Source: Bacillus sp. EAC (GTDB lineage: Bacteria > Bacillota > Bacilli > Bacillales > Bacillaceae_G). From it: a DNA stretch of 64,000 nucleotides. Each line of letters opens with the position of its first letter. Position 1 is the stretch's first letter. The notes under the pieces were generated by a model. It saw only the letters and a program-made list of their open reading frames with translations, was not told where the DNA came from and made no database searches. Positions 5,623-40,490 of the stretch are shown piece after piece. Position numbers and translations under genes: made by a program. The DNA lies in NCBI RefSeq assembly GCF_002156875.1, contig NZ_NCSY01000004.1, positions 310,001 to 374,000 of the forward strand, given 5' to 3'.

Positions 5623-6304
5623 TATTTTAAATGCAGATTGGAGTAACACATTAACCATTGTGAAGGATTCATTCCTTCCAATGGTTAAAACTGCTTTAAC
5701 AGGAACTATTCCTTTAACCATCATTACGTTCATTCTTGGACTTGTGTTGGCTTTTATTACCGCATTATTCCGTCTGTCAGGTAATAAATTCTTAAATGGA
5801 TTAGCTAGAGTTTATGTTTCAATCGTACGAGGTACGCCATTATTAGTTCAGTTATTTATCATTTTCTACGGATTACCTACAATTGGATTAACAATTTCAC
5901 CATATATTTCTGCAATTATTGGTTTTTCATTAAGTGTAGGAGCGTATGCTTCAGAAATCATTAGAGGGTCAATTCAATCAATTGATAAAGGGCAGTGGGA
6001 AGCTGCTTATTCAATTGGCATGTCATATAATCAAACATTAAAACGAATCATAATTCCTCAAGCTGCTAGAGTTTCTTTACCACCATTATCTAATACATTT
6101 ATTAGTTTAGTAAAAGATACTTCATTAGCCTCATTAATTTTAGTAACTGAAATGTTTAGAACTGCTCAAGAAATTGCTGCAATGAATTATAAATTTTTAG
6201 TTGTGTATTCAGAAGCCGCGTTAATCTACTGGATAATCTGCTTCTTCCTATCAGTAATTCAAGGGCGACTAGAAGCTCGAGTAGAACGATATGTTGCAAA
6301 ATAG
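5609..6304 (+). CDS. tcyB: Cystine ABC transporter, permease
   Basis: 231 aa from ATG 5609, overlapping the end of tcyA by 14 nt, so translation is probably coupled. TTG 5588 and TTG 5600 are possible alternatives. The protein has about five transmembrane segments and the polar amino-acid permease signature ([20 protein letters not shown] about residue 70; the EAA loop [20 protein letters not shown] about residue 130). It forms the membrane channel driven by TcyC. Belongs to the HisMQ-type inner-membrane family. Confidence 0.83.
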
Positions 6305-24231: not shown

Positions 24232-24669
24232 TTATTGTTTAATAATGTTATTTTCGATACATTTTGCAATTTTTTGTAGATGTTCATTTGTGTAATTTTC
24301 GGTATTTGTCTCCCATTTGACATCAAAGCCATCATTTTTTCCATATCGTGGTAAAATATGCATATGATAATGAAATACAGTTTGCCCTGAAACTGCACCA
24401 CTATTATTAATAATATTTACACCTTCAACATTAAATGCTTTTTTGATTGCATTTGCAATTATTGGCATCTTTTTGAAATAGACACTTGCTGTTTCTTCAG
24501 TCATAGAAAATATATTTTCAACATGATTCTTTGGAATAACTAATGTGTGTCCCTCTGTAACTTGACTTAAATCTAAAAAAGCTAATACATTGTCATCTTC
24601 ATACACTTTAGATGCTGGGATTTGACCTTCTACAATTTTACAAAAAATACAATTCGCATCATGTACCAT
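24232..24669 (-). CDS. hit: HIT-family protein Hit
   Basis: 145 aa from ATG 24669, which matches the family start; GTG 24681 and TTG 24678 are in frame further up. N-terminal zinc-type Cys pair CIFCKIV, LDLSQVTEGHTLVIPKNHVE, and the histidine triad HYHMHILPRYG (about 98-108). HIT hydrolases cleave the alpha-phosphate of nucleoside-phosphate conjugates; Hit's cellular substrate is unknown. It is divergent from ecsAB, as in B. subtilis, but separated from it by 1.3 kb of repeats and non-coding RNA. Confidence 0.92.
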   Translation of the reverse strand: MVHDANCIFCKIVEGQIPASKVYEDDNVLAFLDLSQVTEGHTLVIPKNHVENIFSMTEETASVYFKKMPIIANAIKKAFNVEGVNIINNSGAVSGQTVFHYHMHILPRYGKNDGFDVKWETNTENYTNEHLQKIAKCIENNIIKQ

Positions 24670-24793
24670 TTTAATCAACACTCTTTTCTATTTTTTCCCT
24701 ATTTTACCATAAATTTGTTGTGAATAAAAAAGCAGTATTTTTGATTTCTGAAAGACTTTTTTTAGTCTCGGATAAAAAAATAAAGTTGAATTA

Positions 24794-24900
24794 CGATGCA
24801 GGATGCTCCCTTTCCGTGGGGTGTGAACTGAGCCTCCTCGGTTAGGACTGAGGGGTCTCACCCTTACTCGCTACTCCCACAGGAGTCTCGCATCTTCAAC
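24794..24900 (-). repeat. Dispersed intergenic repeat, copy C (short form)
   Basis: On the minus strand: CTCCTGTGGGAGTAGCGAGT, GTGAGACCCCTCAG, CCGAGGAGGCTCAG, CCCCACGGAAAGGGAGCATC. It lacks the ~70-bp extra block of copies A, E and G. Confidence 0.85.
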
Positions 24901-25021
24901 CCAAATCAAACATCTTTATATACTCTTCCTATTAAATCTTTCAGAGCAATGAGTTTTGTTTAATATCAACAATAAAAATTAACAGTTTCCTACTGTCCGA
25001 TTTAATAATTGAAAACAAAAA

Positions 25022-25425
25022 CAAGAAGCAACTTCTAATAGTTGCTTCTTGCTGAAGGGGAAAGTTGTTAGTTTTTTGAATGGTCTTTGATAGACACCTC
25101 ATTTGCTTTAATGTTCAATTAATTTGTACACCTTTTATAATAAATTATATGCTCTGGTCGAGACACCTCATTTACGATTTTGGTATACTAAAGACCTTTG
25201 TAATAATAGATATTGTTCAAGCGTACCATCTCCTTAGATATTTTCGTTGAAGTTTGACAACGATGGTTTATCGAGGAGATACTTGTTCACTAAAAACAAT
25301 GATCTGATTTAGGTTTGAACGCAAATAATAACTTATTTAACACACAACTCATTTCAATTGTTTGAAAAGAAAGAGTGTGCACTTTCCCTTCAAGAATAGA
25401 ATACCCTAAATGCAAAACAGTATTC
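25022..25425 (+). ncRNA. Large structured RNA candidate, copy 1 of 2
   Basis: A ~404-nt segment largely colinear with 25522-25930. 5' hairpin CAAGAAGCAACT/AGTTGCTTCTTG (25022-25051). A long-range closing helix GAAGGGGAAAG (25054-25064) with CTTTCCCTTC (25382-25391), ATCTCC (25228-25233) with GGAGAT (25275-25280), small stems GTCT/AGAC and CTC/GAG, and a 3' hairpin GAATAC/GTATTC (25399-25425). ACCTCATTT occurs at 25096 and 25165, with AACTCATTT at 25346 and a degenerate version at 25281. No protein-coding frame is conserved between copies. Orientation is inferred from the closing helices and from ecsA downstream. Confidence 0.6.
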
Positions 25426-25521
25426 GTATTAAGAGCAAAGTTTTTATTTTTTTAGGATCTGCTTTATAAGATTTAAATTTTTTAGCGCTTTTAATGAAGG
25501 GATTAGATCCTTAAAATGAAA

Positions 25522-25930
25522 CAAGAAGCAACTAGTAGTTGCTTCTTGCCGAAGGAGAAAGATATTGGTTTTTAAGTTAATTGTCTTTAACAGACACCTC
25601 ATTTGCTTTTTTAGTTCAATTAATTGGTACACCTATAAATAAATTATATGCTCTGCTCGAGACACCTCATTTACAAAGTTGGTATACTAAAGACCTTTGT
25701 AACTATAGATATTGTTCAAGCGCACCATCTCCCTTGATATTATCACTGCTGTTTATGACAACGATGCTTTATCTTAGGAGATACCTCATTTCACTTAAAA
25801 CATTTATCTGACTTAGGTTTGAACGCAAATAATATACCTTTAACACACACCTCATTTCAAATGGTTGAACTGGAAAGAGTGTGTTTCTTTCCCTTCAAGA
25901 ATAGAATACCCTTTAGACAAAATAGTATTC
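25522..25930 (+). ncRNA. Large structured RNA candidate, copy 2 of 2
   Basis: Second copy, ~409 nt, 500 bp after the first and about 110 bp before ecsA. It keeps every helix: CAAGAAGCAACTA hairpin, GAAGGAGAAAG (25551-25561) with CTTTCCCTTC (25887-25896), ATCTCC (25727-25732) with GGAGAT (25777-25782), AACACAC with GTGTGTT, TTACAAAG with CTTTGTAA, and GAATAC/GTATTC at the end. It has four intact ACCTCATTT segments (25596, 25664, 25783, 25849), each just after a small helix or in a loop. Differences from copy 1 lie mainly in loops. It could be an independent RNA or an ecs leader. Confidence 0.62.
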
Positions 25931-26041: not shown

Positions 26042-26779
26042 ATGACTTTATTAGAAGTACAAGATGTATCAGGTGGCTATACTAGACAACCTGTTATTAA
26101 AGATGTTTCATTCACAATTAATAAACATGAATTGGTTGGTCTAATTGGATTAAATGGCGCAGGGAAGAGTACAACAATCAAACATATTTTGGGGCTTTTG
26201 AAACCATTAAAAGGTGAAATATTAGTTAATGGTAAAAATTTTGATAAGGACCCTACAGAGTACCGTGCAAGTTTATCTTATGTACCAGAGACTCCAATGA
26301 TTTATGATGAACTAACACTACAAGAGCACTTGGAACTTACTGCCCTAGCATACAACATACCTGAATCAGAGTTTAAAAAACGCAGTGAAGAATTACTGAA
26401 AACATTTCGACTTTATGAAAAAAGAAAGTATTTTCCTTCTACGTTTTCAAAAGGTATGAAACAAAAGGTAATGATCATTTGTTCTTTAATCGTTCAACCA
26501 CAGCTATACATAATTGACGAACCTTTCTTGGGGCTAGATCCAATTGCAATAAATGATTTACTTGAGATTTTAAAGAAAGAAAAAGAAAATGGAGCAGGTA
26601 TTTTAATGTCTACACACATTTTATCAACTGCACAAATTTATTGTGATTCTTTCATTATTATTCATGAAGGAATTATTATTGCAAAAGGCTCCTTAAAAGA
26701 ACTTCAAAAACAATATGATATGCCAAATGCTTCATTAGACGAAATTTATATTTATGCTACTAAGGATAAAAAAATATGA
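26042..26779 (+). CDS. ecsA: ABC transporter ATPase EcsA
   Basis: 245 aa. Walker A GLNGAGKSTT (about 36), Q-loop YVPETPMIYDELT (about 81), signature FSKGMKQKVMIICSL (about 137), Walker B LYIIDEPFLGLDP, H-loop STHILSTAQ. Paired with the membrane protein EcsB in the Ecs transporter, needed in B. subtilis for normal secretion, competence and sporulation and for regulated intramembrane proteolysis by RasP. Ribosome site AAAGGA is 9 nt upstream. Overlaps ecsB by 4 nt (ATGA). Confidence 0.93.
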   Translation: MTLLEVQDVSGGYTRQPVIKDVSFTINKHELVGLIGLNGAGKSTTIKHILGLLKPLKGEILVNGKNFDKDPTEYRASLSYVPETPMIYDELTLQEHLELTALAYNIPESEFKKRSEELLKTFRLYEKRKYFPSTFSKGMKQKVMIICSLIVQPQLYIIDEPFLGLDPIAINDLLEILKKEKENGAGILMSTHILSTAQIYCDSFIIIHEGIIIAKGSLKELQKQYDMPNASLDEIYIYATKDKKI

Positions 26780-40289: not shown

Positions 40290-40490
40290 AACTGTAAATA
40301 AAGAAGATGATGAACGGATATGCGAGTCTCCTGTGGGAGTAGCGGGAAGGTGAGACCCCGCAGTGGTCAAAAAGGTAGGCATGTAATACCATGACGTCCT
40401 GTCGTAACGCATGCATGACCTACATCGTGTGGGCCCGAGGAGGCACACCGCCCGCCCCACGTAAAGCGAGCATCCTGGAGTGAAAAACTA
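40290..40490 (+). repeat. Dispersed intergenic repeat, copy E (long form)
   Basis: Full unit: left end ACTGTAAATAAAGAAGATGA, CGAGTCTCCTGTGGGAGTAG, GAGACCCCGCAG, the ~70-bp insert (AAAAAGGTAGGCATG, GACGTCCTGTCGTAACGC, ATGCATGACC), GAGGAGGC, CCGCCCGCCCCACG and right end AAAGCGAGCATCCTGGAGTG. The insert carries its own inverted repeats. Confidence 0.9.

Follow-up and report, generated by a model that had tools for sequence, protein, structure and literature searches.

Tandem S357/Bvs196-like RNA genes between hit and ecsA in Gottfriedia carry repeated Shine-Dalgarno-like modules

The gap between hinT and ecsA is the site of a published small RNA gene. In B. velezensis, this gap encodes Bvs196, a 294-nt RNA seen on northern blots and ending in a terminator, whose reporter is active only in the forespore under the control of sigma-F and mainly sigma-G (PMC9147052). 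Deletion of Bvs196 lowers the heat and UV resistance of the spores and raises their formaldehyde resistance. In vitro, Bvs196 binds the spo0A mRNA (Kd 3.57 uM) and the sspN-tlp mRNA (74 nM), the targeting regions being overlapping loops at nt 74-131; mutation abolishes the binding, and mRNA levels are altered in the deletion strain (PMC9147052). The B. subtilis homologue is named S357 in the introduction of that paper, whereas its discussion has S547 instead (PMC9147052). The 256-nt RNA ncr1670, also from hinT-ecsA (PMC3574147), is S357 under another name (PMC4410918). Many Bacillales genera retain this forespore RNA at the same locus, there is no agreed mechanism for it, and the one functional paper found on it examined single mRNA targets (PMC9147052).

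The window analysed here, a 64,000-nt stretch of the genome of Bacillus sp. EAC, a member of Gottfriedia, contains two ~400-nt copies of one element (25022-25425 and 25522-25930) that together occupy the gap between hit, on the minus strand, and ecsA, on the plus strand. The copies are 83% identical (copy 2 matches copy 1 over query positions 1-404 of 409, E 5.4e-114) and form five two-copy repeat blocks with a start-to-start spacing of 497-505 nt, so that the ~405-nt tandem repeat of the original prediction is real. A protein-coding repeat was ruled out by the frame-breaking indels between the copies, whose lengths are not multiples of three, in agreement with the earlier statement that no reading frame is kept. 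Also borne out was the general picture of a structured, duplicated, non-coding RNA of ~400 nt whose recurring segments are akin to the ribosome-binding region. The RNA is almost certainly a homologue of the forespore RNA S357/ncr1670/Bvs196, which is absent from Rfam. Taking this identity together with the minus strand and the two-gene structure, we are highly confident that each copy is a separate minus-strand gene with its own promoter-like element and its own terminator. The features are as follows.

25515-25895, minus strand: S357/Bvs196-like RNA gene, copy 2 (type A), ecsA-proximal; ~380-nt transcript with approximate ends, promoter-like element and terminator; found by alignment in 13/13 genomes of the genus
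25018-25390, minus strand: S357/Bvs196-like RNA gene, copy 1, hit-proximal; ~373-nt transcript with approximate ends, promoter-like element and terminator; 83% identical to copy 2
25901-25930, minus strand: promoter-like element of copy 2, GAATA-N14-GGGTATTCTAT; sigma-F/G class by likeness to CsfG promoters
25396-25425, minus strand: promoter-like element of copy 1, GAATA-N14-GGGTATTCTAT; sigma-F/G class by the same likeness
25887-25898, minus strand: closing helix P1 of copy 2, 5' arm UUGAAGGGAAAG; sequence, RNAalifold consensus and order-wide arm-pairing test
25550-25561, minus strand: closing helix P1 of copy 2, 3' arm CUUUCUCCUUCG; sequence and RNAalifold consensus
25382-25393, minus strand: closing helix P1 of copy 1, 5' arm UUGAAGGGAAAG; sequence and RNAalifold consensus
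25053-25064, minus strand: closing helix P1 of copy 1, 3' arm CUUUCCCCUUCA; sequence and RNAalifold consensus
25520-25550, minus strand: intrinsic terminator of copy 2, by terminator scan and its same-strand counterparts in 48/48 homologous motif-A gaps
25020-25053, minus strand: intrinsic terminator of copy 1, by terminator scan
25847-25857, minus strand: motif A no. 1 of copy 2, AAATGAGGTGT; genome-wide motif scan and profile
25781-25791, minus strand: motif A no. 2 of copy 2, variant AAATGAGGTAT; sequence and one-mismatch scan
25662-25672, minus strand: motif A no. 3 of copy 2; genome-wide motif scan
25594-25604, minus strand: motif A no. 4 of copy 2; genome-wide motif scan
25344-25354, minus strand: altered motif A of copy 1, AAATGAGTTGT; sequence and one-mismatch scan
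25163-25173, minus strand: motif A of copy 1; genome-wide motif scan
25094-25104, minus strand: motif A of copy 1; genome-wide motif scan
25714-25735, minus strand: motif B of copy 2, AAGGGAGATGGTGCGCTTGAAC; sequence and profile
25215-25235, minus strand: motif B of copy 1, AAGGAGATGGTACGCTTGAAC; sequence and profile
26042-26779, plus strand: ecsA, divergent flanking gene
24232-24681, minus strand: hit (HIT-family protein), flanking gene on the same strand as the RNA

The link to the published RNA comes from the corresponding loci. At one locus, EcsA shares 99% identity with its B. subtilis counterpart; there and at further loci from that genus, the RNA occupies the same gap, on the same strand and with the same motifs, including two or three copies of motif A, and the predicted lengths of 293 and 295 nt for two of these loci compare with 294 nt for Bvs196 (PMC9147052). 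The loci nearest B. subtilis and B. velezensis contain a promoter of the GGACAT/GGACAA type, three motif A copies and the closing helix; their species were assigned by EcsA identity, and homology here means shared motifs, promoter and closing helix. Like Bvs196/S357, the Gottfriedia RNA lies in the hit(hinT)-ecsA gap on the same strand, ends in a terminator and has a similar length scale, and motif A copies occur in the corresponding loci; its promoter-like element may be of the same class. In contrast to the single ~294-nt gene of these relatives, Gottfriedia has one to three tandem, individually promoted copies of ~375-380 nt. The kind of RNA is thus already known and the Gottfriedia genes are duplicated relatives of it, while for the modular build we found no earlier description in the openly licensed literature.

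The original prediction had placed the RNA on the plus strand, starting with a strong 5' hairpin. Read on the minus strand, each copy shows the order expected of a gene: GAATA-N14-GGGTATTCTAT, the 5' arm UUGAAGGGAAAG, the body, the 3' arm CUUUCYCCUUC, a 14-pair hairpin and a T-rich tail. Because this hairpin and tail close the minus-strand gene, the supposed 5' hairpin is an intrinsic terminator at the 3' end. Three terminator-like sites were found at the locus where 0.5 were expected, two of them the minus-strand hairpins at 25053-25020 and 25550-25520 and the third a 6-pair plus-strand site within copy 1. Across the order, the final motif is followed by an intrinsic terminator on the hit strand in 48/48 motif-A gaps (best -15.4 to -23.8 kcal/mol); on the opposite strand, one occurs at the mirror position in 4/48 gaps, anywhere in 9/48 and outside the mirror position in six. 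Motif A itself was found on the hit strand in 48/60 hit-ecsA gaps and on the opposite strand in 0/60. All 27 complete Gottfriedia copies that were aligned have the terminator hairpin, a 28th being truncated by a contig end.

At the other end of the gene, the promoter-like element G[CTA]ATA-N12-17-GG was found in 26/48 RNAs and in 101/960 shuffled sequences, with at least two of the 26 matches appearing spurious (L200, L204). The pattern has no match in 22/48 RNAs, including the two nearest B. subtilis and B. velezensis (L157 and L158). An element of this type is present in 24/30 CsfG genes from this group, and in 21 of the 24 its parts are 14 nt apart. The -10 parts differ, being GGTCATAAT in CsfG and GG.CATCATAAT or GGGTATTCTAT in the S357-like RNAs. 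Because of this difference, and because the loci nearest B. subtilis and B. velezensis miss the pattern, sigma-F/G control in Gottfriedia is something we infer from homology and promoter likeness. The GAATAC/GTATTC palindrome of the original prediction is present, and on the transcribed strand it reads as part of the promoter rather than as an RNA hairpin.

These observations bear on the earlier reading, in which a plus-strand RNA with anti-Shine-Dalgarno segments would block the translation of mRNAs. Its starting point is correct as sequence: CACCTCATTT differs by one base from the 3' end of 16S rRNA. Allowing at most one mismatch, the window has 13 occurrences of CACCTCATTT where 6.35 would be expected, a number reached by 1/100 shuffles, and 7 of the 13 lie within the two copies. 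The counts given for ACCTCATTT also hold for the intact segments (four in copy 2 and two in copy 1), and of the two altered segments in copy 1 one was recovered by the scan at 25344-25354 and the other, at ~25281, by eye only. The minus strand, however, is favoured by the terminators, by the promoter-like elements, by the strand bias of the motif and by the helix energies, and in the published relative this gap likewise encodes a separate sRNA with its own terminator (PMC9147052). On the minus strand the recurring RNA segment is AAAUGAGGUGU, which resembles a Shine-Dalgarno sequence and therefore cannot pair with the ribosome-binding sites of mRNAs as an anti-Shine-Dalgarno segment would. We consider the plus-strand reading hardly credible.

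The long-range closing helix P1 was retained, with its arms assigned to the minus strand. Pairing of the arms was compared in the 33 of 48 RNAs with both ends recognised, the other 15 being without a recognised promoter or terminator (<= -12 kcal/mol). The arms of one RNA pair at -20.1 kcal/mol, arms combined between species at -13.9 kcal/mol and own arms read on the other strand at -18.6 kcal/mol; in one of the 33 RNAs, L165, the own arms are no better than swapped arms. P1 varies among species yet remains paired, as in GUAGAGGA/UCCUCUGC, GUAGAAGAAAU/AUUUCUUCUGC and UCGAAGGGGA/UCCCCUUCGA. In the RNAalifold consensus of 28 copies from the genus, both sides are changed in 3/84 pairs, indicating little covariation. 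This consensus contains the closing helix, ATCTCC/GGAGAT and the strong hairpin of the original prediction, while its CACAC/GTGTG appears as ACAC/GTGT with four of the five pairs. Covariation in homologues was seen for P1 across species and for the terminator within the genus, and for these two alone.

Rfam 15, searched at the gathering threshold over the whole window, returned only three Bacillaceae-1 RNAs (RF01690; 51995-52061 on the plus strand, 2602-2668 on the minus strand and 40368-40433 on the plus strand), none of them in either copy. Matches up to E 10 contained nothing credible, the best sub-threshold match reaching 25.5 bits against a cut-off of 55.8. The earlier statement that the element belongs to no known RNA family therefore holds for Rfam and fails for the literature, where Bvs196/S357/ncr1670 is a published forespore sRNA. 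The RF00516 (CsfG) model likewise has no match at this locus, and its single match in the genome is at G000:C1:76250-76369.

CsfG (RF00516, which is the ylbH element in the opposite orientation) deserves a closer comparison. Like the S357-like RNA it is non-coding, widely conserved, ends in an intrinsic terminator and has a promoter of a similar class, and the two co-occur: all 30 genomes searched contain CsfG, and 29 of them also carry motif A between hit and ecsA. CsfG differs in its locus, in being shorter (RF00516 spans ~116-151 nt), in being CU-rich and in having no complement of the motif A core. The similar promoter class, the co-occurrence and the presence of UCUCCUCUCCC in the seven CsfG sequences inspected would suit an S357-like RNA that acts as a sponge for CsfG through the CU-rich, anti-Shine-Dalgarno-like loops of the latter. 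Within the RF00516 span, however, the motif-core complements CACCTC, ACCTCA and CCTCAT are absent from CsfG in 26/26 genomes, and the duplexes with CsfG are no better than those with shuffles (mean z +0.36) or with the CsfG of other species (+0.46 kcal/mol). A CsfG sponge is very unlikely on this evidence.

These RNAs have a modular build. They contain one to eight copies of AAAUGAGGUGU with a mini-hairpin (motif A), and there is a second motif (motif B), AGGRGAUGGUY...UUGAAC. The consensus of motif A, from 125 GAGGTG instances in 48 RNAs, is AAAUGAGGUGU-Y-U-R-Y-N-R-A-A-G-A-C; the three A are conserved at 84, 94 and 97%, U4 at 99% and U11, after GAGGUG, at 92%. When AAATG is the seed (156 instances), AGGTGT emerges again, each position at 72-80%, indicating that the pattern is not merely a product of the GAGGTG seed. 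The end of motif A can form a 4-pair stem with a pentaloop, and the 17 nt from GGTG fold at a mean of -1.83 kcal/mol against -0.58 kcal/mol when shuffled. Covariation in the mini-hairpin (four positions, 123 instances) did not place its pairing above column shuffles; G-U accounts for 126 of the cells and A-C for 19, and four are changed on both sides (C-G twice, G-C twice). The consensus of motif B, from 40 instances seeded on GGRGATGG, is AGGRGAUGGUY-NNN-UUGAAC.

CsrB/RsmZ-type titrating RNAs have many copies of a short purine-rich module per RNA, with GGA in hairpin loops. The S357-like RNAs are similar in that many copies of one short purine-rich module suggest, by analogy, the titration of one partner. 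They differ in that GGA is absent from motif A; GGRGAUGG is part of motif B. Another Bacillus RNA proposed to act by titration is a sponge of the RNA RoxS in B. subtilis, named RosA, which reportedly titrates sRNAs. ROOL, GOLLD and OLE are large ornate structured RNAs closed by a long-range helix. The S357-like RNA is likewise large and structured with a long-range closing helix and, unlike them, has no Rfam match. Motifs A and B could be modules for tertiary structure or self-assembly, as in ROOL and GOLLD, rather than sites for a partner in trans. The closing helix and the predicted length of ~260-490 nt in 32 of the 33 RNAs measured (one tandem case is 753 nt) agree with such a role, as does the prediction that the motifs are largely paired, more so than with shuffled flanks. 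The number and spacing of the modules, on the other hand, differ widely among loci, unlike a fixed fold, and covariation is limited to P1 and the terminator. We regard this role as rather improbable.

If the RNA were instead an ordinary base-pairing sRNA, single-stranded stretches would pair with a few mRNAs such as spo0A and sspN-tlp and the repeats would be structural only. The binding of Bvs196 to both mRNAs in vitro, its loss on mutation and the altered mRNA levels in the deletion strain speak for this (PMC9147052). Targeting loops at nt 74-131 nevertheless leave unexplained an 11-mer with a hairpin that recurs up to eight times and is conserved across genera. In the available part of its account of Bvs196, that paper has no mention of motifs A and B (PMC9147052), and the repeated module (UGAGGUGU) is undescribed in the openly licensed literature searched on Bacillus and this sRNA. 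We consider this explanation doubtful.

The sequence of motif A points toward the ribosome-binding site. Outside this locus, which holds 5 of the 13 occurrences of AAATGAGGTGT in the genome, there are eight; in six of the seven that were viewed, ATG or TTG follows 7-10 nt after GAGG and opens a frame of 43-337 aa, while the seventh lies inside a long frame on the other strand. AAATGAGGTGT is therefore probably a usable Shine-Dalgarno sequence in this genome. Within the RNAs, ATG, GTG or TTG follows motif A at 5-11 nt in 10/123 cases, one of them ATG, which suggests that the RNAs may mimic ribosome-binding sites without being translated.

Against the 16S tail, motif A has a pairing energy of -9.5 kcal/mol, equalled by 127/5000 shuffles of its bases, and motif B is not special (1188/5000 shuffles were as good). 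The near-invariant U4 of motif A is a mismatch to 16S; a G at this position would give -15.5 kcal/mol yet is not seen. Partition-function folding of 35 RNAs (the 33 and the two window copies, with one of >700 nt omitted) gave motif A a mean unpaired probability of 0.29, equal to other purine-rich 7-mers (0.29) and below that with shuffled flanks (0.41; control RNAs of <= 500 nt). A plain 16S decoy acting by base pairing is thus weakly supported for motif A and unsupported for motif B. The U4 mismatch, the shuffle counts of both motifs and the lack of predicted exposure favour titration of one partner that reads beyond the Shine-Dalgarno core, and we infer that the likeliest such partner is a protein, for which the original prediction had alternatively suggested the repeats as sites, followed by the 30S subunit.

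In the mechanism that we propose, the forespore RNA would fold into a closed, multi-branched body bearing several near-identical modules, AAAUGAGGUGU with its mini-hairpin and AGGRGAUGGUY...UUGAAC. As a multivalent decoy of ribosome-binding sites, it would titrate one partner that reads a Shine-Dalgarno-like sequence, either an RNA-binding protein or the 30S subunit. The timing of expression, in the forespore under sigma-F and mainly sigma-G, and the role in spore resistance would be those of the published relative. Titration by the repeated modules is for us a matter of even balance, and the 30S subunit as the titrated partner is a minority possibility. A repeated module predicts one partner and can be mutated copy by copy in S357 or Bvs196. 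If the partner is the 30S subunit or a protein that reads Shine-Dalgarno sequences, the RNA would be a way of lowering or redirecting translation in the maturing spore.

The RNA is found throughout Gottfriedia. All 13 genomes searched carry one to three tandem copies, some interrupted by contig ends; EcsA adjoins the RNA on the opposite strand in 13/13, and Hit lies in the same locus in 10/13, with contig ends intervening in three. Compared with the ecsA-proximal copy of G002, the ecsA-proximal copies of nine other species are 92-97% identical and those of G000, G006 and G004 86%, 83% and 75%, whereas the other tandem copies are 80-85% identical to it. Much of the duplication therefore predates these species.

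Beyond the genus, two motif A copies 40-70 nt apart serve as a search signature that finds the family although Rfam has no model. A contig scan with this signature gave 44 stretches, some genomes appearing twice, in Gottfriedia, Metabacillus, Ectobacillus, Peribacillus, Alkalihalobacillus macyae, Virgibacillus, Priestia taiwanensis, Lentibacillus, Niallia and records named Bacillus. EcsA and/or Hit accompany 39 of the 44, with the motif pair always opposite to the EcsA strand and on the Hit strand; the five without either are L052, L064, L066, L085 and L094. The strict two-motif pattern occurs in 41/299 genomes of the order sample. The 60 gaps, 48 of which have motif A one or more times on the strand of hit, were hand-picked from the higher-scoring EcsA matches among those listed (395/397 genomes had an EcsA match), so that this fraction is no estimate of prevalence. 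In 28 further genomes, the motif was found upstream of ecsA in 3/17 with a full SigG and 0/11 without one, counts for which 1,500 bases were scanned where Hit was unrecognised (3/17 and 3/11, respectively), and the link of the RNA to SigG or sporulation from this count is weak. Several SigG-bearing lineages have no such RNA in the hit-ecsA gap.

The fixed position between the divergent hit and ecsA at most loci would also suit a mainly cis-acting element that serves the two genes as an insulator or attenuator. The RNA has its own terminator, however, and unlinked copies exist, both as a second copy in four genomes of one genus and in Texcoconibacillus, which makes such a role very improbable. 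The four genomes belong to genus g47, which we take to be cereus-group-like, and the second copies lie in L286 (3513-3660), L289 (3558-3703), L287 and L288; near the copy in L286, L287 and L289 is a gene that is presumably cold-shock-protein-like. The Texcoconibacillus element (L066, 6197-6766) has eight motif A copies spaced 76-84 nt apart with promoter-like and terminator-like ends, and neither EcsA nor Hit lies within the 8-kb stretch; by eye it looks like a genuine unlinked member. A k-turn reading (UUCA-AAU-GA-GGU...ACC-GA-UGGA) fits some of the Texcoconibacillus repeats by eye and was rejected for the family. On a broader view, these RNAs may form a widespread Bacillales forespore class of repeated ribosome-binding-site mimics without start codons that acts as a multivalent decoy, withdrawing the 30S subunit or a Shine-Dalgarno-reading protein during spore maturation, amplified in Gottfriedia to up to three diverged tandem genes; we offer this tentatively, as possible rather than probable.

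Several further loci were observed during the scans. A second tandem duplication lies in another family (G140), where gap positions 304-958 of L205 hold two motif pairs with a strong terminator after each. In Niallia endozanthoxylica (L088, 4595-5210) the RNA body looks duplicated internally, with six motifs and near-identical spacers. The gap of G244 (L202) has motif B twice and no motif A, and is perhaps a diverged member of the family. A haloarchaeal contig (L094, Natronorubrum, 6027-6245) contains CTCAGGAAATGAGGTGT four times, 62-74 nt apart, and these repeats are probably unrelated to the S357-like RNA. Finally, downstream of the RNA genes in the window, at ~24797-24900, lies a G+C-rich, repeat-like intergenic element (CTTTCCGTGGGGTGTGAACTGAGCCTCCTCGG...GGAGTCTCGCATC), and a similar one is found near L139.
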